DNA from: an uncultured Acidobacteriota bacterium
GTDB lineage: Bacteria; Acidobacteriota; Terriglobia; Terriglobales; Acidobacteriaceae
Direction of reading: 5' to 3'
Length of the DNA stretch: 64,000 nt
Assembly (NCBI GenBank): GCA_903832055.1
Contig: CAILAC010000002.1
Coordinates: 372,001 to 436,000 of the forward strand
The position numbers and the translations under genes were made by a program. The number at the start of each line of letters is the position of its first letter. Position 1 is the first letter of the stretch. Positions 27,930-35,386 of this stretch are shown here, piece after piece. The notes beneath the pieces were generated by a model. It was not told the origin of the DNA. It worked only from the letters and a program-made list of their open reading frames with translations, and made no database searches.

Positions 27930-28240
27930 ATCGGGCGCACTTCCGGCGATCTGCCCTGCGTAATCTCGCCGATCTGAGAGACTATCTTGTCAGGCCCAGC
28001 AGCAACAGCCGAGTGGCGCGGAAATTCATTTCCCGCCTGCGCGCATACTGTGACCATCTTGCCTCGTTCCCCTTCGCGATGGGCAAGGAACGTCCAGAGT
28101 TGGCTCCAAATCTCCGCAGCATCGCATTTGAAAACTATTTGATCTTTTTTCAATACACGCGAGATCGCCTCGAAGTAGTCAACATCATCGAAGGCCACCG
28201 CGACGTCCCCCAATATTTCTCCCTCACCAAACCCGAATAA
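27926..28240 (+). CDS. Type II toxin, ParE/RelE superfamily
   Basis: 104 residues from a GTG that overlaps the antitoxin stop (GTGA). The fold is indicated by SALRNLADLRDYLV, RKFISRLRAYCDHLASFP, GKERPELAPNLRSIAFENYLIFFQY and VVNIIEGHRD, the usual helical hairpin followed by a three-stranded sheet. ParE members poison DNA gyrase and RelE members cleave mRNA; this one looks more ParE-like through the RPEL-x6-SIAFENYLIFFQY block. No frameshift or missing region is visible, so it is probably functional. Confidence 0.85.
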   Translation: MNRAHFRRSALRNLADLRDYLVRPSSNSRVARKFISRLRAYCDHLASFPFAMGKERPELAPNLRSIAFENYLIFFQYTRDRLEVVNIIEGHRDVPQYFSLTKPE

Positions 28241-28300
28241 TCCCTCTTCCCCGCCGCACCCCCAATCCCCCCGCCCGGCAGGATTACAATCCTATAAAGC

Positions 28301-28335
28301 CCGTTGCACCCAGTCTCTGCCTGAGAATGCAACGG
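28301..28335 (+). promoter_or_regulatory. Inverted repeat CCGTTGCA-N19-TGCAACGG upstream of lon
   Basis: Eight-base perfect arms (28301-28308 and 28328-28335) flank 19 bases, ending 38 bp before the lon ATG. This could be an operator for a dimeric repressor or a hairpin in the lon leader. I cannot assign a regulator and see no clear heat-shock promoter beside it. Confidence 0.4.
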
Positions 28336-28373
28336 AATTCAATTTGCTGCATCCCATCTCTTAAGAGGATTCA

Positions 28374-30785
28374 ATGACGACACGGGAAAAAAACGAACCA
28401 CGCAAACTGCCCATGATGCCCATCCGCGACATGGTGATCTTCCCGTACATGGTGACCCCCTTCGTCGTCGGCCGCGAATCCAGCGTCCGCTCCCTCGAAG
28501 AAGCCCTCACCGGCGACCGCAAAATCTTCCTTGCCACCCAGCATGACGCAAGCGTCGACGAGCCCAAGGCCAAGGAAATCTACCAGGTCGGCACCATCTG
28601 CAACATCGTGCAGTCCGTCAAAATGCCCGACGGCAACATCAAAGTCCTCGTCGAGGGCGTCGAACGTGCCAAATCCACCGACGTTACCGACGCTGACGGC
28701 TTCTTCGTTGCCACCGTGCGCAAAGGCAAATCCAACTTCGAGATGACGCCAGCCACCGAAGCTCTCATGCAGCGCGTCACTACCCTCTTCGAAAGCTACG
28801 TCAAGCTCCAGCAATCCCTCAACTACGAAACCATGATTGCCTCTGTGCGCATGGACGAGCCCGCCAAGCTCTCCGATGTCATCGCCGCCAACCTTCAACT
28901 CGGCATCGAAGAAAAGCAGGAACTCCTCGGCATCTTTGACCCCACAGCCCGCCTCGCGCGCATAGCAGACGTGCTCGATGTTGAAATCGAAAAGCTCGAC
29001 CTCGACCGCAACGTCCAGTCTCGCGTCAAGCGCCAGATGGAGCGCGCCCAGAAAGAGTACTACCTCAACGAAAAGATCAAGGCCATCCAGAAGGAACTCG
29101 GCCGCGGCGAAAAAAGTGAGTTTGACGAACTTCGCAAGAAGATCGAAACCAGCGGCATGACCAAGGAAGTCATGGAAAAGGCCAACCAGGAGCTCGCCAA
29201 GCTCGAAGCCATGCCTCCCATGTCCGCCGAATCCACCGTCAGCCGCAACTACCTCGACTGGCTCCTCGCCGTGCCGTGGAAGAAGAAGTCCAAGGAAACC
29301 CGCAGCGTCGACCACGCCGAAAAGGTCCTCAACCAGGACCACTACGGCCTCGAAAAGATCAAAGAGCGCATCCTTGAGTTCCTCGCCGTCCGCCAGCTCG
29401 TAAAAAATCCCAAAGGATCCATCCTCTGCTTCGTCGGACCTCCAGGCGTCGGCAAAACCTCTCTCGGCATGTCCATCGCCAAGGCCACCGGCCGCAAATT
29501 CGTCCGCCTCTCCCTCGGCGGCGTGCGTGACGAAGCGGAAATCCGTGGCCATCGCCGTACCTACATCGGCGCCCTGCCGGGGCAGATCATTCAGGCAATG
29601 AAAAAGGCCGGTACGAAAAATCCCGTTTTCCTCCTTGACGAAGTCGACAAAATGGCCAATGACTTCCGCGGCGATCCCGCATCGGCCCTGCTCGAAGTCC
29701 TCGACCCCGAACAGAACAGGACCTTCCAGGATCATTACCTCGACGTCGACTACGACCTCTCCGAAGTCCTCTTCGTCGCCACCGCCAACGTCCTCCACAC
29801 CATCCCGGCTCCCCTTCAGGACCGCATGGAAATCCTCCGCCTCTCCGGCTACACCGAGGTCGAAAAACTCGAAATCGCCCGCAACTACCTGCTCAAAAAA
29901 CAGCGCGAAGCCACCGGCCTCACCGAGCACAATCTCACCTTCAAAGACGACGCCATCGTCGCCATCATCCGCGACTACACCCGCGAAGCGGGCGTCCGCA
30001 ACCTCGAACGCGAAATCGGCAACGTCTGCCGCAAGGTTGCCCGCCGCGTCGTCAAAAACGGCCCAAAGCACCAGGAAGAAATCACCGCACTCAATATCAA
30101 CGACTTCCTCGGCGTCGCCCGTTTCCGCGACTCTGAGGTCCACGACAGCCCAGAGGTCGGCCTCGTCACCGGCCTCGCATGGACTGAAGTCGGCGGCTGC
30201 ATCCTCACCACCGAGGTTCAGGTCCTCGACGGCAAAGGCAAGCTCACCATCACCGGTCAGCTTGGCGACGTCATGCAGGAGTCAGCCCAAGCTGCCCTCT
30301 CTTACATCCGCGGCCGCGCCAATGCCCTCGGCCTACCCCGCGATTTCTATCGCAACCTCGACATCCACCTCCACGTCCCCGAGGGTGCCATCCCCAAAGA
30401 CGGCCCGTCCGCTGGCATCACCATCGCCACGGCCCTTGCCTCAGCACTCGCCAAAATCCCCGTACGCCGCGACATTGCCATGACCGGCGAAATCACCCTC
30501 CGCGGCAAAGTCCTCCCCATCGGCGGCCTCAAAGAAAAACTCCTCGCTGCCCAGCGCGCAGGGGTCTTTGAAGTCATCCTCTGCAAGGCCAACGAAAAAG
30601 ACACCGTTGACCTCCCTGAGGCTCTCAAGAAGGCGATGAAGCTCCACTTCGTCGACCAGATGGACGAGGTCCTCAAGATCGCCCTGCTGTCCCCCCTCAA
30701 AGCACTGGATGAATCCGAGGCTGTGCCCATGACCACCATGCCTCCAGCAGAATTGCCCACCGGCAGCCAAACCACCCACCAGTAG
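28374..30785 (+). CDS. lon: ATP-dependent Lon protease
   Basis: 803 residues, the normal length for LonA. Order: N-terminal substrate domain ([19 protein letters not shown]), a helical middle, AAA+ domain with Walker [10 protein letters not shown] and Walker [11 protein letters not shown], and the C-terminal protease domain with the catalytic Ser in PKDGPSAGI and the Lys in [18 protein letters not shown] lies about eight bases upstream of the ATG. It degrades misfolded proteins and antitoxins in the cytoplasm; the directly preceding gene pair is a toxin-antitoxin module. Confidence 0.97.
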
Positions 30786-30801
30786 CCAAGGAAAGCCGAA
30801 T

Positions 30802-30838
30802 CCGGGTGCCCCACATCTCGCCTTTGAGATGTGGGATT
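30802..30838 (+). repeat. Divergent REP hairpin, same borders as the 128-bp units
   Basis: CCGGGTGCCCCACATCTC, loop GCCTTT, then GAGATGTGGGATTC: a perfect ten-base stem (30810-30819 with 30826-30835). The borders CCGGGTGCCCCAC and GTGGGAT match the hairpins at 31678, 31806, 31934 and 32576 while the inner stem differs with its pairing kept. It lies 16 bp after the lon stop. Confidence 0.7.
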
Positions 30839-30866
30839 CAAACACCTCAACAACTCCAGGTACCCC

Positions 30867-31655
30867 ATGCTCAGCCTCCGTGTCTGGATCATCACCGCCC
30901 TGATCGTTCTCGCAGCGATCGGGGCCTACGTCGTCTGGGCAACCCGCGCCCGCGTCAACTACACCTCCCGCTCCCTCTCCGCCGCGCCGCCCGCCACCCA
31001 CACTGCGGCCAACTCGGCCACTCACCCCCTCCACATTGATGGATGCAACGACGACTTCATCGTCAAAACCGGCGAGCTCGTCGAGCCCCGCGTCGTCCCC
31101 GGCGCCCCCATCGAAGACTTCCGCCGCACCTACGGCAAAGAAACCCACCGCGACAAATCCGGCATCACCACCTGGGACCCCAACCCCTTCACCCTCAGCG
31201 AAGGCAGCCTGGGCCCGGACAGATCCAGCAGCTTCGTAGCCCTCTCCGTCAATCAGGGCCACGTCGTCGAAACCCTCGACGGCATCGAACTCGGCATCGA
31301 CTCCCTCGGCACCGTCTTTCGCAAAATGCGCGACCGCGGCGTCGAAACCCACGAGCGCGTCATCCACGGTGACGGCTCATGGACGCTCGTCATCTCCTTC
31401 TACTCCACCTGTGCCCGCAAGTACCGCAGCGAATACTCCCGCACCTTCCCCGCCACCCCCGAAATCGACAGCCTGGTCACGCCTCACCCACCCGTTCCCG
31501 ATCCGGGTAAACCGGCCCCGCCACCCGGCACCCCCGCCAAACCCCTCCCCTGGCGCTCTGACTTCTTCCTCAACAAAGTAGTCACCCAATACACCCTCGT
31601 TCCCTCAAACGGCCACGACGACTCCATCGAAGGCTCCCCCTCCGACCACAACTAA
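30867..31655 (+). CDS. Membrane-anchored protein of unknown function
   Basis: About 262 residues from the ATG at 30867. One N-terminal membrane helix (LRVWIITALIVLAAIGAYVVWA) anchors a periplasmic domain that starts after a Ser- and Ala-rich linker. The domain has IDGCNDDFIVKTGELVEPRVVPG, then VVPGAPIEDFRRTYGKE and IELGIDSLGTVFRKMRDRGVE, and a proline-rich tail (about 215-245, PVPDPGKPAPPPGTPAKPLP). Two cysteines could form a disulfide. I do not recognise the family. It follows lon by 81 bp across a REP hairpin and need not be co-transcribed. Confidence 0.6.
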   Translation: MLSLRVWIITALIVLAAIGAYVVWATRARVNYTSRSLSAAPPATHTAANSATHPLHIDGCNDDFIVKTGELVEPRVVPGAPIEDFRRTYGKETHRDKSGITTWDPNPFTLSEGSLGPDRSSSFVALSVNQGHVVETLDGIELGIDSLGTVFRKMRDRGVETHERVIHGDGSWTLVISFYSTCARKYRSEYSRTFPATPEIDSLVTPHPPVPDPGKPAPPPGTPAKPLPWRSDFFLNKVVTQYTLVPSNGHDDSIEGSPSDHN

Positions 31656-31669
31656 ATCAAGCAACAAAT

Positions 31670-32053
31670 CCGGTTGCCCCACCTTCAAAACAGTCCCACC
31701 GTTTTTAAGGTGGGATACTTTGTATCTATAGCCCTGTATAGCCCTTGTCTTTTACATCCCGAGTCAATCTCGACTAAAACTCGTCCTTGCCCCAAATCCG
31801 GGTGCCCCACCTTCAAAACAGCCTCACCGTTTTTAAGGTGGGATACTGTGTATCTATAGCCCTGTATAGCCCTTGTCTTTTACATCCCGAGTCAATCTCG
31901 ACTAAAATTCGTCCTTGCCCCATATCCGGGTGCCCCACCTTCAAAACAGCCCCACCGTTTTTAAGGTGGGATACTGTGTATCTATAGCCCTGTATAGCCC
32001 TTGTCTTTTACATCCCGAGTCAATCTCGACTAAAATTCGTCCATGACCCAAGG
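31670..32053 (+). repeat. Three head-to-tail 128-bp units, each with a REP hairpin, ending in the RAYT start
   Basis: Units start at 31670, 31798 and 31926. Each begins CCGGGTGCCCCACCTTC (first copy CCGGTTG), carries a hairpin (31678-31714, 31806-31842, 31934-31970; arms CCCACCTT-C-AAAAC and GTTTT-T-AAGGTGGG, nine-base loop), then TATCTATAGCCCTGTATAGC, CCCGAGTCAATCTCGACT and CGTCC. Where units 1 and 2 read TTGCCCC, unit 3 reads ATGACCC, the start of the transposase gene at 32043. Very few differences separate the units, so the amplification is recent. These are contiguous repeats, not a CRISPR. The array fills the 387-bp gap before the transposase. Confidence 0.92.
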
Positions 32054-32558
32054 CCTAAAGCGATACCAGGGTTCGGGCGACTTCCACTTCATTACTTTCA
32101 GTTGTTATCAGCGCAAGCCCTACCTCTCGTTACCCTCAAGCCGGTCCCTCTTCGAAGAATCACTGGAATCGACAAGAGTCAGATATAACTTCAAAGTCCT
32201 CGGGTATGTAGTTATGCCCGAACACATCCACCTACTACTCACCGAACCCCCTGAGACCCCAATTTTCAAAGCACTCATGTCCCTGAAAATCTCAAGCGCC
32301 AAACGCCTCAAGGAATCCCCCTTCTGGCAGGCTCGCTACTACGATTTCAACGTCTTTACAAGCACCAAGCAGGTCGAAAAGCTGAAATACATCCATAGAA
32401 ACCCAGTTCGCCGTGGCCTTGCCCCAAGGCCTGAAGACTGGGCTTGGTCCAGCTTCCGCCACCACGCTACCGGCTTTGAAGGCACGGTACAAATCGAATC
32501 CAAATGGACAGCCTTCAAGCGAGATTCCAGTCCGAACCCACCCAGCAAATCGCAATAA
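32043..32558 (+). CDS. REP-associated tyrosine transposase (RAYT, IS200-like Y1/HUH family)
   Basis: 171 residues. The HUH motif is seen in VMPEHIHLLL, with RYQGSGDFHFITFSCYQRKPYL at the N-terminus and FWQARYYDFNVFTS supplying the candidate catalytic tyrosine, followed by KLKYIHRNPVRRGLAPRPEDWAWSSF, the conserved C-terminal block of this family. RAYTs are single-copy domesticated relatives of IS200/IS605 transposases that act on REP hairpins. Here the gene lies between direct copies of such hairpins: one 72 bp before its start and one 17 bp after its stop. No convincing ribosome-binding site precedes the ATG, which sits inside the 128-bp repeat. Confidence 0.9.
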   Translation: MTQGLKRYQGSGDFHFITFSCYQRKPYLSLPSSRSLFEESLESTRVRYNFKVLGYVVMPEHIHLLLTEPPETPIFKALMSLKISSAKRLKESPFWQARYYDFNVFTSTKQVEKLKYIHRNPVRRGLAPRPEDWAWSSFRHHATGFEGTVQIESKWTAFKRDSSPNPPSKSQ

Positions 32559-32567
32559 GGCCACACT

Positions 32568-32636
32568 CCGGGTGCCCCACCTTCAAAACAGCCCCATCGT
32601 TTTTAAGGTGGGATACTGTGTATCTATAGCCCTGTA
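32568..32636 (+). repeat. Partial fourth copy of the 128-bp unit, downstream of RAYT
   Basis: CCGGGTGCCCCACCTTC with the full hairpin (32576-32612) and GGGATACTGTGTATCTATAGCCCTGTA matches the first half of the upstream units in the same orientation and then diverges at about 32636. The remaining 350 bases to the engB start (32637-32990) are lower in GC, contain a C-rich run near 32880, and hold no gene that I can support. Confidence 0.85.
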
Positions 32637-32990
32637 CCCCTATTCCCAATCACCATACCGAAACTCGCGCCATTGCCGACAATTACCCAAGATCGGCGCA
32701 CAATAGAAACAACAACAGCCCAGACCACGCCGTTACCCTCGCTTTTTGATTGTCATTCTCCAGGGGAAACTGCCGTTACAAGTCCAAAATATGGCCTCAA
32801 AACAGCACAAAAACATGCAGGTAACCAACTCGCAACCCCATCAAAACAAGCATTTTAACCAACAAAACCTCAAAAAACACCCCACCCCCCCCTTTAGGGC
32901 AGGAAGCCCCGCTTTCTGCCCATAACCGCAACTCCTGTATCCTGAAGTAGGTTGACCGGACACAGATCTCCGTCTCCCGGAGATTGCTCA

Positions 32991-33623
32991 ATGCGCTATC
33001 AAACCCAGTTCCTGCTCTCGGCCATGGAAGCCTACCAGTTCCCCGCTTCCAACGCCCCTGAGATCGCCTTCCTCGGCCGCTCCAACGTCGGCAAGTCGAG
33101 CCTGCTCAACGCCCTCGTCGGCGAAAAGGCCGCAAAAGTCTCCTCCACCCCCGGCCGCACCCGCTCCATCAACTTCTTCGCCCTCGGTGCTCTCAAGCCC
33201 GGCGAAGAAAGCCAGCCCGGCCGCGAGTTGATCACGAAACCCAAGCTCCTCTTCGCCGACCTGCCCGGCTACGGCTACGCCAAGATTTCGAAATCCATTT
33301 CTGAAACCTGGCCTGACTTCATTGACCCGTATCTCGCTGAACGCGAACAACTTAAGCTCTGCATTTGCCTCATCGATTCCAACATTCCGGCCCAGCAAAG
33401 CGACATGCAGTTGCTCAACTGGCTGCGCCACGTCGGCCGCAACTTCGCCGTCGTCGGCACCAAGGTCGATAAGCAGAGCGGCAACGAACGCACCAAAAAC
33501 CTCGCCCGCCTCAAGCGCGACCTCCAAATCGATGACCTTTTGTTTCTCTCGTCCAAGACCGGTTACGGCCTCAAAGACTTGTGGAAGCGCATCGAAGACG
33601 CCGCAGACCTGCCCAGCCAGTGA
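32991..33623 (+). CDS. engB: Ribosome biogenesis GTP-binding protein EngB/YsxC
   Basis: About 210 residues from the ATG at 32991. All GTPase motifs are present: G1 GRSNVGKSS, G2 region around STPGRTRSINFF, G3 DLPGYGYAK, G4 GTKVDK and G5 SSKTGYG. It acts in late assembly of the large ribosomal subunit. A small insert around residues 68-85 (GALKPGEESQPGRELITKP) lengthens the switch region compared with the usual 195 residues. It is convergent with the gene at 33647, 23 bp downstream. Confidence 0.94.
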   Translation: MRYQTQFLLSAMEAYQFPASNAPEIAFLGRSNVGKSSLLNALVGEKAAKVSSTPGRTRSINFFALGALKPGEESQPGRELITKPKLLFADLPGYGYAKISKSISETWPDFIDPYLAEREQLKLCICLIDSNIPAQQSDMQLLNWLRHVGRNFAVVGTKVDKQSGNERTKNLARLKRDLQIDDLLFLSSKTGYGLKDLWKRIEDAADLPSQ

Positions 33624-33646
33624 GCCAGCCAACACAAGCTGCGCTA

Positions 33647-34408
33647 CTAAAGAATCGGCTGTCCAGCAATCTCAATCTGCACCGGATCAGTTGCCTCCGC
33701 AGCCAGCTTCCGCGCCGCCTCACGGAACTCTTCCAGCTCCGCGTCACTGAGAACGACGCCACGCTCCCGCTGCGCCAGCCGTCCCAGATACCGCGGTGCC
33801 AGCCGCAGCCAACGTCGCCGCTCAGTATCTCCCGCAGGAATAGCGGCTATCGCCAAGGCATCCAGCCGCGGTAGCCACTGCGCAAACTGCCGGTCGACAC
33901 TCCAGCAGATATAGTCGCCGACAGTAGTTTCGGCCACTTCAATCCGCCGCGCGCCATCTGCCGCAAACCGCTCCATCAGCGGCAATTGCCCGTCAGCCGC
34001 AAGCAGCTCAGGCAGCACGCCACGCTCTAGCATCGCCTCAACCAGCTTCTGCGGTGCAACTCCAACCCCAACCGATACAGTTTGGCGCTTGCGAATTTCG
34101 TTCTTGAGAATGCGCAGAGCTTCTTCCAGCGAAGTCACGACAAAGTCCACCACGCCATCGCGCATCGCCATCCGCTGCACGGTTGGGTCTGCTGAAGCAG
34201 CCAGCGAAGCCGCGCCCGCAATGTTCGCCGCAAAGAGCAGATCGCGCCCCGCAGACGTCAGTTCACCTGCATACAGCAGCTTGCCACCCAAACCCGCCTC
34301 AACATCCAGCGTGAGCGTGCGGCACAGCGCAGCGTATTGGCGGAAAATCTGCTCTGCCGCGCAGGTCGCGTCAGGCTGATCGAAAGGTGGAGGCAAGTGG
34401 GAAGACAT
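33647..34408 (-). CDS. Conserved hypothetical protein, possibly urocanase-like
   Basis: 253 residues, cytoplasmic, no signal peptide. The central region (GLGGKLLYAGELTSAGRDLL, FAANIAGAASLAASAD, MRDGVVDFVVTSLEEALRIL, KNEIRKRQTVSVGVGVAP) looks like a compact alpha/beta domain, with a phrase resembling part of urocanate hydratase. I cannot confirm this and the length is less than half that of urocanase, whose NAD-binding motifs are not seen. The C-terminal half is helical. It ends convergent with engB and starts 56 bp before the pseudopilin stop, reading the same way but with its own leader. Confidence 0.5.
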   Translation of the reverse strand: MSSHLPPPFDQPDATCAAEQIFRQYAALCRTLTLDVEAGLGGKLLYAGELTSAGRDLLFAANIAGAASLAASADPTVQRMAMRDGVVDFVVTSLEEALRILKNEIRKRQTVSVGVGVAPQKLVEAMLERGVLPELLAADGQLPLMERFAADGARRIEVAETTVGDYICWSVDRQFAQWLPRLDALAIAAIPAGDTERRRWLRLAPRYLGRLAQRERGVVLSDAELEEFREAARKLAAEATDPVQIEIAGQPIL

Positions 34409-34464
34409 TCCCTATAGTCTAACGGGAATCAGACGATGAGAAGGGCCGGCAAAACCATTGGCCT

Positions 34465-34872
34465 TTACCAGGTCGAATACGGCTGCCCATCGCTGCCCGG
34501 TTCTTCATCGCCAGAGTGCACGTCATCAATGCCCGGCTCCGTCTGGTCAATCGAATGCAGCGCGTCGCTCTGGTTGACCACCCAACTATCCGAGGCGCGC
34601 GTCATCGGGTCCACCGGAATCGACTTGAGATACCCACTATCCACCAGGTCCTGCAGTGACTGCGGAGCCTTCTGCTTGTCCATCGTGTAGGAATCAATGG
34701 CTCCCCGCAGCACGTGCAGATCTTCCTTCAGCACAGATTCCTTCGCCGCCTTCACCGCAGAGATGTAATTCGGGATGGCAATGCCCATCAGCACACCAAT
34801 GATGAGCATCACCACCATCAGCTCAATCAGCGTGAATCCCTGCTCCGACTTGTGCCTGCCCTGAATCTTCAT
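34465..34872 (-). CDS. Type II secretion pseudopilin, GspG-like
   Basis: 135 residues from the ATG at 34872. A short basic leader ends in the prepilin peptidase site before FTLIELMVVMLIIGVLMGIA (Gly-Phe cut, Glu at position five), then helical AKESVLKEDLHVLRGAIDSYTMDKQKAPQSLQDLV and GYLKSIPVDPMT, the GspG core. Unlike most GspG proteins it ends in an acidic tail with EPGIDDVHSGDEEPG and closes YSTW. It lies 22 bp after the second pseudopilin and the secretin in one apparent operon (35409, 34895, 34465). It would form part of the periplasmic pseudopilus. Confidence 0.85.
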   Translation of the reverse strand: MKIQGRHKSEQGFTLIELMVVMLIIGVLMGIAIPNYISAVKAAKESVLKEDLHVLRGAIDSYTMDKQKAPQSLQDLVDSGYLKSIPVDPMTRASDSWVVNQSDALHSIDQTEPGIDDVHSGDEEPGSDGQPYSTW

Positions 34873-34894
34873 CGCCTCAGCCAATCTGAAATCC

Positions 34895-35386
34895 TCACCA
34901 CTCCGAGTACTTGGTCCCGTCGAGGGCTGTTCCCGTTGACTTCGAATACACGTCAAAAACGCTCTGGCCGCCATACGAGTCGCTCTTGGGGTCGTCCTGC
35001 ATCGAGTGCAAACCCCACTCCGCCTTGCCCGTCATGGGGTCGACCGGAATCTTGCGCAGAAACTTGACCTTCTTGCCCTGAACTTCCACTCCCTTGACCA
35101 GTTCGTCCAGATCCGGAGGATAGTTCTGGCTATCGACCTTGGTCATGAATGCACCCTTTTCAGCAGCATCCTTGTAATGGTCGATGGCATCGCGCATCTC
35201 CCAGAGATCCCGCCGCAGTTCGCGCTCCTTTTCCCGCTGCACCTTGAACCGCGCAATGGGAACCGCCGCCGAGGCCAGAATACTCAGAATCGCCACCGTC
35301 ACAATCAGCTCGACCAGCGTCAGCCCTGCCTCGCTCCTGCGCGACGCACCGCAACGCAGCAATCGAAGATGCATGAGCTTCATCAT
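34895..35386 (-). CDS. Type II secretion pseudopilin, second copy
   Basis: 163 residues. The prepilin signal has a longer basic leader (RLLRCGASRRSEAG) before LTLVELIVTVAILSILASAA, with the conserved Glu at position five. The globular part has REKERELRRDLWEMRDAIDHYK, PPDLDELVKGVEV and FLRKIPVDPMTGKAEWGLHSM, again GspG-type. It ends YSEW, matching the YSTW of its neighbour. Two GspG-like pseudopilins next to a secretin but no gspE, gspF or gspC in view suggest that the rest of the machine is encoded elsewhere. Confidence 0.85.
   Translation of the reverse strand: MMKLMHLRLLRCGASRRSEAGLTLVELIVTVAILSILASAAVPIARFKVQREKERELRRDLWEMRDAIDHYKDAAEKGAFMTKVDSQNYPPDLDELVKGVEVQGKKVKFLRKIPVDPMTGKAEWGLHSMQDDPKSDSYGGQSVFDVYSKSTGTALDGTKYSEW

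Follow-up and report, generated by a model that had tools for sequence, protein, structure and literature searches.

The window analysed here is a 64,000-nucleotide stretch of an uncultured soil bacterium of the Acidobacteriaceae (GenBank assembly GCA_903832055.1, contig CAILAC010000002.1, positions 372,001 to 436,000 of the forward strand). It contains a gene for a repetitive extragenic palindromic (REP)-associated tyrosine transposase (RAYT) of 171 aa (32043..32558, + strand), at which small DNA hairpins with similar borders are clustered. We found that the border motif of these hairpins is a guide tag, G-x-T-G-[C/G] directly before the CCC of the stem, and that its one variable base, x, covaries with a single position of the enzyme, numbered 103 in the window protein. 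The link suggests how RAYTs may distinguish their own repeats from others. The wider question is what keeps a domesticated transposase and its many small repeats matched. The REP tags known so far are nearly uniform, and the variation described in the available part of PMC3733652, a degeneracy of the GTAG tag, concerns its second and third positions. The Acidobacteria supply natural variants of another tag base, among them a pair of enzymes with a single residue of difference (loci L088 and L093), which brings the matching question within reach of a direct test on a small set of proteins and oligonucleotides. A residue-tag code would also offer a way of re-targeting small single-strand nucleases.

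Covariation of residue 103 with the second base of the tag

The link was first seen while the tags of RAYT loci were being tabulated: loci with T or C as base x had an unusual residue after the sequence YYDF, at the position of residue 103 in the window protein (N103). This residue aligns with residue 102 of Escherichia coli TnpAREP, inside the predicted strand 95-104 (beta-4), and E. coli residues 100 and 104, on either side of it, are among the guide contacts (PMC8266576, in its available part; PMC6006769). For the comparison 155 proteins were used; 25 of the 180 unique proteins were left out because they had no residue in column 103 or no tagged hairpin. Loci L091, L146, and L150 were excluded from the profile seed, and the later loci were found with the variant RAYTs of L093 and L117 as queries.

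Among these 155 proteins, the hairpins beside an Asn-type RAYT carried G in 228 instances, A in three, T in two, and C in two, whereas all 11 hairpins of Pro-type proteins carried T, and those of Ile-type (four) and Ala-type (two) proteins carried C. The rarer residues were Leu (four G, one A, three C, one T), Ser (two G), and Val (one G). The 72 proteins added after the idea had formed gave eight T for Pro, four C for Ile, 103 G, two A, two T, and two C for Asn, and one each of G, C, and T for Leu. Some of the new non-Asn proteins were close to the discovery loci (L236 and L237, 91-94% identical; L266, 92%; L218, 84%) and others were farther off (L209 and L267, 75-78%; L238, L241, L270, L271, and L272, 69-73%). 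Base x was the same in the upstream and downstream hairpins in 102 of 109 cases, and thus the two ends change in concert.

When changes were placed on a tree of the 155 proteins and scored as a binomial chance weighted by branch length, column 103 gave p = 1.0e-5 (1.4e-3 when multiplied by the 137 columns scanned), and the next best column gave 0.18. Of the seven changes of base x, four shared their branch with a change of residue 103. G became T as Asn gave way to Pro in a clade of eight tips (support 0.87), and G became C as Leu was replaced by Ile; in L093 a C-to-T change accompanied Ala to Pro, and in L139 a C-to-G change accompanied Leu to Asn, the last based on one hairpin of a cut-off contig. 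No association between any other tag or stem position and a RAYT column survived correction for 137 columns, the best p values being 0.026 for tag base 5, 0.0097 for stem base 4 (again with column 103), and 0.048 for stem base 5. The Asn/non-Asn association persisted when the proteins were clustered at 95 to 70% identity, with Fisher p values of 2.9e-13 to 4.8e-5; these ignore descent, and the clusters keep proteins that differ at 103 from their neighbours, which favours seeing changes.

The aligned RAYTs of L088 and L093 differ at residue 103 alone (Ala versus Pro), although the loci have 30 nucleotide differences in 761. The tag is GCTG at either end of L088 and GTTG at either end of L093; the upstream stems are identical and the downstream stems are one loop base apart. 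Dispersed hairpins were also typed, and the counts are those among the matches listed. The RAYTs of genome G121 (L238 and L272) combine Pro with the CCCACCCT stem, and 15 of the 16 typed CCCACCCT hairpins there carried GTTG, whereas all 12 CCCACATC hairpins carried GGTG.

Several observations weigh against a simple code. Genome G334 has RAYTs (L209 and L267) with Ile and the CCCAGGTG stem; of its 13 typed CCCAGGTG hairpins, counted in the same way, seven had GCTG and six GGTG, and its other classes had GGTG in 46 of 48 (CCCAGGTC) and 19 of 19 (CCCACCCT) hairpins. The mixed tags could date from an earlier stage with Asn or Leu, though this is not a clean outcome. Three of the seven tag changes occurred without a change at 103: a G-to-C change inside the Leu clade, and G-to-A changes in L303 and L246, both of which keep Asn. 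Five of 132 Asn proteins clustered at 95% had a base x other than G at one end or both; before clustering there were six (L112, L246, L273, L303, L304, and L291), the non-G hairpin of L291 being probably spurious. Leu occurs with all four bases, and independent changes are few, Pro having been gained twice and Ile, Ala, and Leu once each. Since E. coli has Ala at this position together with the G of GTAG, the code would not be universal, if x corresponds to that G. In addition, the later loci are enriched for relatives of the two query RAYTs, and the formal tree scan includes the loci where the pattern was first seen.

The window transposase and its relation to known systems

By its domain content and motifs, the window protein is a RAYT, a single-domain HUH/Y1 transposase of the acidobacterial type. 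It scored above the cut-off of the NCBIfam model for REP-associated tyrosine transposases (NF047646; 101.9 bits versus 80) and below that of the IS200/IS605 model (NF033573; 31.8 bits versus 55), and it matched Pfam Y1_Tnp with 39.8 bits. The best solved relative was 4ER8, E. coli TnpAREP with a bound REP hairpin, both by sequence (E 1.2e-9) and by Foldseek (E 1.2e-11), the fold comparison being made with an AlphaFold2 model (mean predicted local distance difference test score, 89.3). The protein has an HIH motif at 61-63, Y116, and N103, the last encoded at 32349-32351. In 32 aligned sequences H61, Y116, N120, P121, V122, and T18 are invariant and H63 is kept in at least 90%. The available part of PMC2817692 defines RAYTs by the HUH motif, the catalytic Tyr, NP(L/V)(R/K)xG, and an N-terminal Thr; the window protein contains NPVRRG, which fits the third of these, and T18 is a candidate for the conserved Thr. 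A genome search for the Y1_Tnp family gave seven matches, including one other protein of the same type (C10:227230, 57% identical), and a protein search revealed three more RAYT remnants (C9:120880, C12:208053, and C12:209502).

The sequence-only reading took RAYT/REP systems to be known mainly from gammaproteobacteria. Acidobacterial RAYT-like genes with flanking repeats have been in print since 2013: Di Nocera et al. (PMC3733652) described acidobacterial tyrosine transposases with flanking inverted repeats, some in repeat families, under the names TIRtron and TIRYT, and the available part of that paper also notes a sharply defined acidobacterial group. The present loci resemble these elements in that the transposase lies between inverted repeats (58 of 73 loci, the window not among them). 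Unlike here, no G-x-TG-C tag, no linked residue, and no tandem leader is described in that part of the text. E. coli TnpAREP (4ER8; available part of PMC8266576) has the same fold and family, a tag at the hairpin foot, and guide contacts around beta-4, but its tag is GTAG, whereas the tag here is GTGC or GTGG preceded by G. The same part of that paper contains no report that residue 102 (A102) sets a tag base, and its introduction states that there is no evidence of tnpAREP mobility, in contrast to the cassettes here, which appear duplicated at unrelated sites. In Pseudomonas and Stenotrophomonas, orthologous RAYTs have different REP stems and RAYT-REP coevolution has been proposed (PMC3686654 and PMC2817692, in their available parts), which is the situation found here; the tags given there are GT(A/G)G, with no first-base variants tied to a residue. 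Literature searches, which covered few subscription papers, and the available texts of PMC8266576 and PMC6006769 yielded no residue-tag link.

Hairpins and stems at RAYT loci of relatives

We surveyed 80 acidobacterial RAYT loci, the best of 173 relatives, together with the window. Among the 77 loci with enough sequence, 72 had a plus-strand hairpin within 300 bp upstream of the RAYT gene and 65 a minus-strand hairpin downstream, as compared with 14 and 13 of 749 distal 360-bp segments and with plus-strand hairpins in 3 of 385 shuffled upstream regions. Inverted hairpins were present on both sides in 58 of 73 loci. The typical layout of an acidobacterial RAYT locus is thus an inverted hairpin pair around the gene. 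The window is one of 12 loci (of 77) that lack a downstream minus-strand hairpin: within 300 bp downstream of its RAYT gene no such hairpin was found, and the copy there is direct. Having direct copies, the window element does not end in terminal inverted repeats.

Within a locus, the stems matched at 6.5 of 7 arm positions on average (109 loci with both hairpins). Between loci, the match was 6.3 where the RAYTs were at least 80% identical, 4.95 at 65-80%, 2.4 at 50-65%, and 2.3 below. Because stems are alike within a locus and diverge between loci, stem and RAYT appear to evolve together, which speaks against a freely varying interior; the likeness within loci could also come from common descent or from conversion of both hairpins. 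Many stem pair types occurred over 155 loci, but the hairpins had been preselected for at least 9 of 10 pairs, so that the pair types are not counted as independent proof of structure. The last tag base was C in 137 of the 155 proteins, G in 14, and mixed in four.

At six loci (L091, L114, L118, L121, L132, and L137) a hairpin of the family lay inside the RAYT-matching stretch, as if the repeats insert into their own transposase gene.

Hairpin classes in the genome of the window

The motif GGTGCCCCA was found six times in the window as against 0.73 expected. A search of the whole genome for the border motif, as the sequence-only reading had proposed, gave 44 matches to GGTGCCCCA-N(6-36)-TGGGA, one of them nested in another, whereas the backward-read control gave 0 and 1; the hairpins are thus genome-wide repeats. 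A canonical REP is a short palindrome with many copies between genes; the 44 matches here were counted irrespective of intergenic position. In place of the canonical REP tag GT[A/G]G, the window hairpins have GTGC (TTGC in the first copy of the array). A GATG tag was seen in at least four well-formed hairpins of this genome, and GTTG in the first array copy.

The 44 matches sort into several stem classes. Four copies of the window RAYT's class, CCCACCTTCAA, lie at the gene, and further copies or relatives are dispersed at C2:162113, C11:47859, C13:308731, and C16:1009616, and also at C10:632188 and C11:50027; several of the dispersed copies have part of the tail that follows the hairpin in common. 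The fifth hairpin of the window, located after the lon gene (30802..30837, + strand, tag GGTGC), has a perfect 11-bp stem of another sequence and a folding z score of -4.4 (z scores throughout are from DNA folding against dinucleotide shuffles). Its class, CCCACATCTCG, has at least 17 copies in the genome, counted by eye. Hairpins of this class adjoin all three RAYT remnants (loci including L204 and L205) and also RAYTs elsewhere, on both sides in L063 and downstream in L068 and L069. The fifth hairpin is most simply read as the leftover of a different, decayed RAYT lineage. We dropped the idea that it had diverged from the hairpin of the window RAYT itself, since its class adjoins RAYT remnants.

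A tandem array reaching the RAYT start codon

Three contiguous 128-bp units occupy 31665-32048 (tandem-repeat match of 96% over 31665-32051), and the third ends on the ATG at 32043, in agreement with the earlier description of an upstream unit that has multiplied. Units 1 and 2 are 96.1% identical, units 2 and 3 96.9%, and units 1 and 3 94.5%. Unit 1 (31665..31792, + strand; hairpin 31670-31716) has the variant tag GTTGC and the -10-like box TAAAAC, whereas unit 2 (31793..31920, + strand; hairpin 31798-31844) and unit 3 (31921..32048, + strand; hairpin 31926-31972) have GGTGC. The partial copy noted after the gene was also confirmed: it lies at 32567..32636 (+ strand) in direct orientation, measures 70 bp, is 99% identical, and consists of a hairpin with the tag GGTG and 22 nt of leader. 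All four hairpins have one internal C.T mismatch and z scores of -2.4 to -3.6. The hairpin after lon is fully paired, as had been stated. The claim that all five hairpins have the same borders holds for four of them, which carry CCGGGTGCCCCAC; unit 1 has CCGGTTGCCCCAC, with CCGGTTG instead of CCGGGTG.

Units 2 and 3 each contain a promoter-like TTTACA-18-TAAAAT (31879..31908 and 32007..32036, + strand), identified by consensus match only; two such sites in the region compare with a mean of 0.9 (sd 1.0) in shuffles. The site in unit 3 ends 6 nt before the ATG, which would make the RAYT start leaderless. Since both units carry such a site, the array may multiply promoter and hairpin together. 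Both unit junctions read CCCCA(A/T)ATCC, and this together with the closeness of units 2 and 3 fits repeated simple duplication; the array looks like ordinary tandem duplication within a known kind of element.

Full units, searched with 122 bases in 300 family genomes, occurred only in the genome of the window, and partial matches of 45-62 bases occurred in five other genomes; at most two candidates were scored per genome, so that weaker copies may have escaped the search. In a close relative (G011:C68; L203:2978-3039) the window RAYT hairpin and its tail have a diverged copy, with no RAYT match within the 6 kb examined.

In a strict test, in which the last p bases before the gene had to repeat at 75% or more, arrays were found in 5 of 170 loci and in 1 of 111 control stretches, the latter being shorter (700 bp versus up to 1400). 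The five are the window (128 bp, three copies), L063 (45 bp, two copies), and three weak arrays of only 77-83% identity (L235, L273, and L301). Hairpin arrays outside this test were seen upstream in L101 (three, 38-bp spacing) and L085 (four, 55-56 bp) and downstream in L061 (three, 50 bp). Genome G155 has nine GTTG hairpins in units of 92-93 bp directly before the Pro-type RAYT of L236 (L326:998-1782, contig C32), and eight of the nine units end in CCATGCC, like a start region. Amplification of a RAYT leader is therefore rare, as had been supposed, but it is not unique and recurs in kind (L101, L085, and L326).

Similar cassettes at different sites

Four pairs of RAYTs, each within one genome (L238/L272, L241/L271, L209/L267, and L207/L266), are 85-89% identical over 692-745 bp. 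Their flanks, compared over 1-1.5 kb at E 1e-3, had only short matches of 20-115 bp, from element ends to other places, which were taken for other hairpins. The cassettes of L088 and L093 are 96.1% identical and their aligned flanks 75-82%. Since similar cassettes occur at apparently unrelated sites of one genome, it is suggested that RAYT cassettes have moved as units. Among the ten right ends listed, five (L088, L093, L238, L271, and L272) coincide, to within two bases, with an outer motif, GGTGGCC or GCTGGCC or a near form, which occurs 12-75 nt outside 82 of 262 hairpins as against 21 of 1310 composition shuffles.

An outer half-copy of a hairpin arm, GGGTGGCCC or GGGCTGGCCC, was observed outside many flanking hairpins (L065, L068, L083, L127, and others), mostly 24-50 nt from the hairpin foot and often followed by a stem mimic. 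It also stands at the right end of several cassettes.

Probable recognition of tagged hairpins, and alternatives

Taken together, we consider it probable that RAYTs of the acidobacterial type recognise tagged hairpins, that stems and RAYTs diverge jointly, that residue 103 reads base x, and that the leader in the window was duplicated. The enzyme would recognise single-stranded hairpins consisting of the five-nucleotide tag G-x-T-G-[C/G] and a CCC...GGG stem, whose sequence would diverge along with the RAYT lineage. Residue 103 in strand beta-4 would read base x, directly or indirectly, Asn going with G, Pro with T, and Ile or Ala with C, while Leu would be permissive, and a single substitution could re-target the enzyme to a new hairpin set. 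At most loci the gene between its two inverted hairpins would form a cassette that probably moved as a unit. At the window RAYT, which is without an inverted partner, the promoter-like leader and hairpin would have grown by duplication into a tandem of three, for which unequal exchange or slippage is the simplest route, and the fifth hairpin would be left over from a different, decayed lineage. In this picture the arrangement, the class membership, the covariation, and the concert of both ends are observed, whereas recognition as such, a direct contact, the re-targeting step, the movement of cassettes, and the way the array arose are inferred. The bolder proposal of a one-residue switch seems to us about evenly poised: residue 103 would read the first base of the guide tag (x), single substitutions that occur in nature (Asn or Ala to Pro, Leu to Ile, and Leu back to Asn) would re-target the enzyme to a new tag, flanking and dispersed hairpins would then convert, Leu would serve as a permissive intermediate on the way to new codes, and cassettes would move as units.

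The residue-tag link might instead be hitch-hiking, in which chance changes fell on the same few branches and gene conversion between inverted hairpins produced the concert of both ends, with no contact between residue and base. The small number of independent changes (seven of the tag, eight of the residue), the general concert of upstream and downstream stems, and the compatibility of Leu with any base are in its favour. It is unlikely in our view, since column 103 stands alone among 137 columns, the L088 and L093 proteins differ only there despite their nucleotide differences, the position lies among known guide contacts, and dispersed hairpins agree with the tag of their class in G121, although only partly in G334. 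Still less probable is the proposal of the sequence-only reading that the borders alone are recognised and the inner stems drift freely under pairing only. The borders are indeed common to all classes that the border pattern retrieved from the genome, but by construction of the search; the fifth hairpin, on which the proposal was based, belongs to a class with its own RAYT relatives, the stems match within loci and track RAYT identity, though conversion or common descent may explain this, and the second border base itself varies with residue 103. As to the array, the RAYT itself may have made it by re-inserting hairpin and leader at the start codon. Arrays of three (window and L101), four (L085), and nine (L326) hairpins right at RAYT starts, and the CCATGCC ends in L326, as if each unit carried the start region, point in this direction. 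Tandem repeats need no enzyme, however, and the junctions in the window and the likeness of units 2 and 3 are as for repeated tandem duplication, so that we give an enzyme-made array only a small chance beside unequal exchange or slippage.

Genes adjoining the RAYT locus

A search of 28000-35000 against Rfam gave nothing above the gathering score, with one chance match (17.4 bits versus 40). The upstream neighbour is a lon protease gene (28374..30785, + strand; Pfam Lon_C, LON_substr_bdg, and AAA). The downstream neighbour is an open reading frame (ORF) at 32952..33623 (+ strand), which we take to be an engB/ysxC-type GTPase gene; it had matches at E < 1e-40 in 14 of 15 genomes of the genus, its own included. 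Between the two lies ORF X (30867..31655, + strand), which has no Pfam match. Among five relatives compared for synteny, three (L199, L200, and L202) retain ORF X between lon and engB (tblastn, 43-50% identity) and have the order lon-X-engB without a RAYT, and two (L198 and L201) have engB alone.

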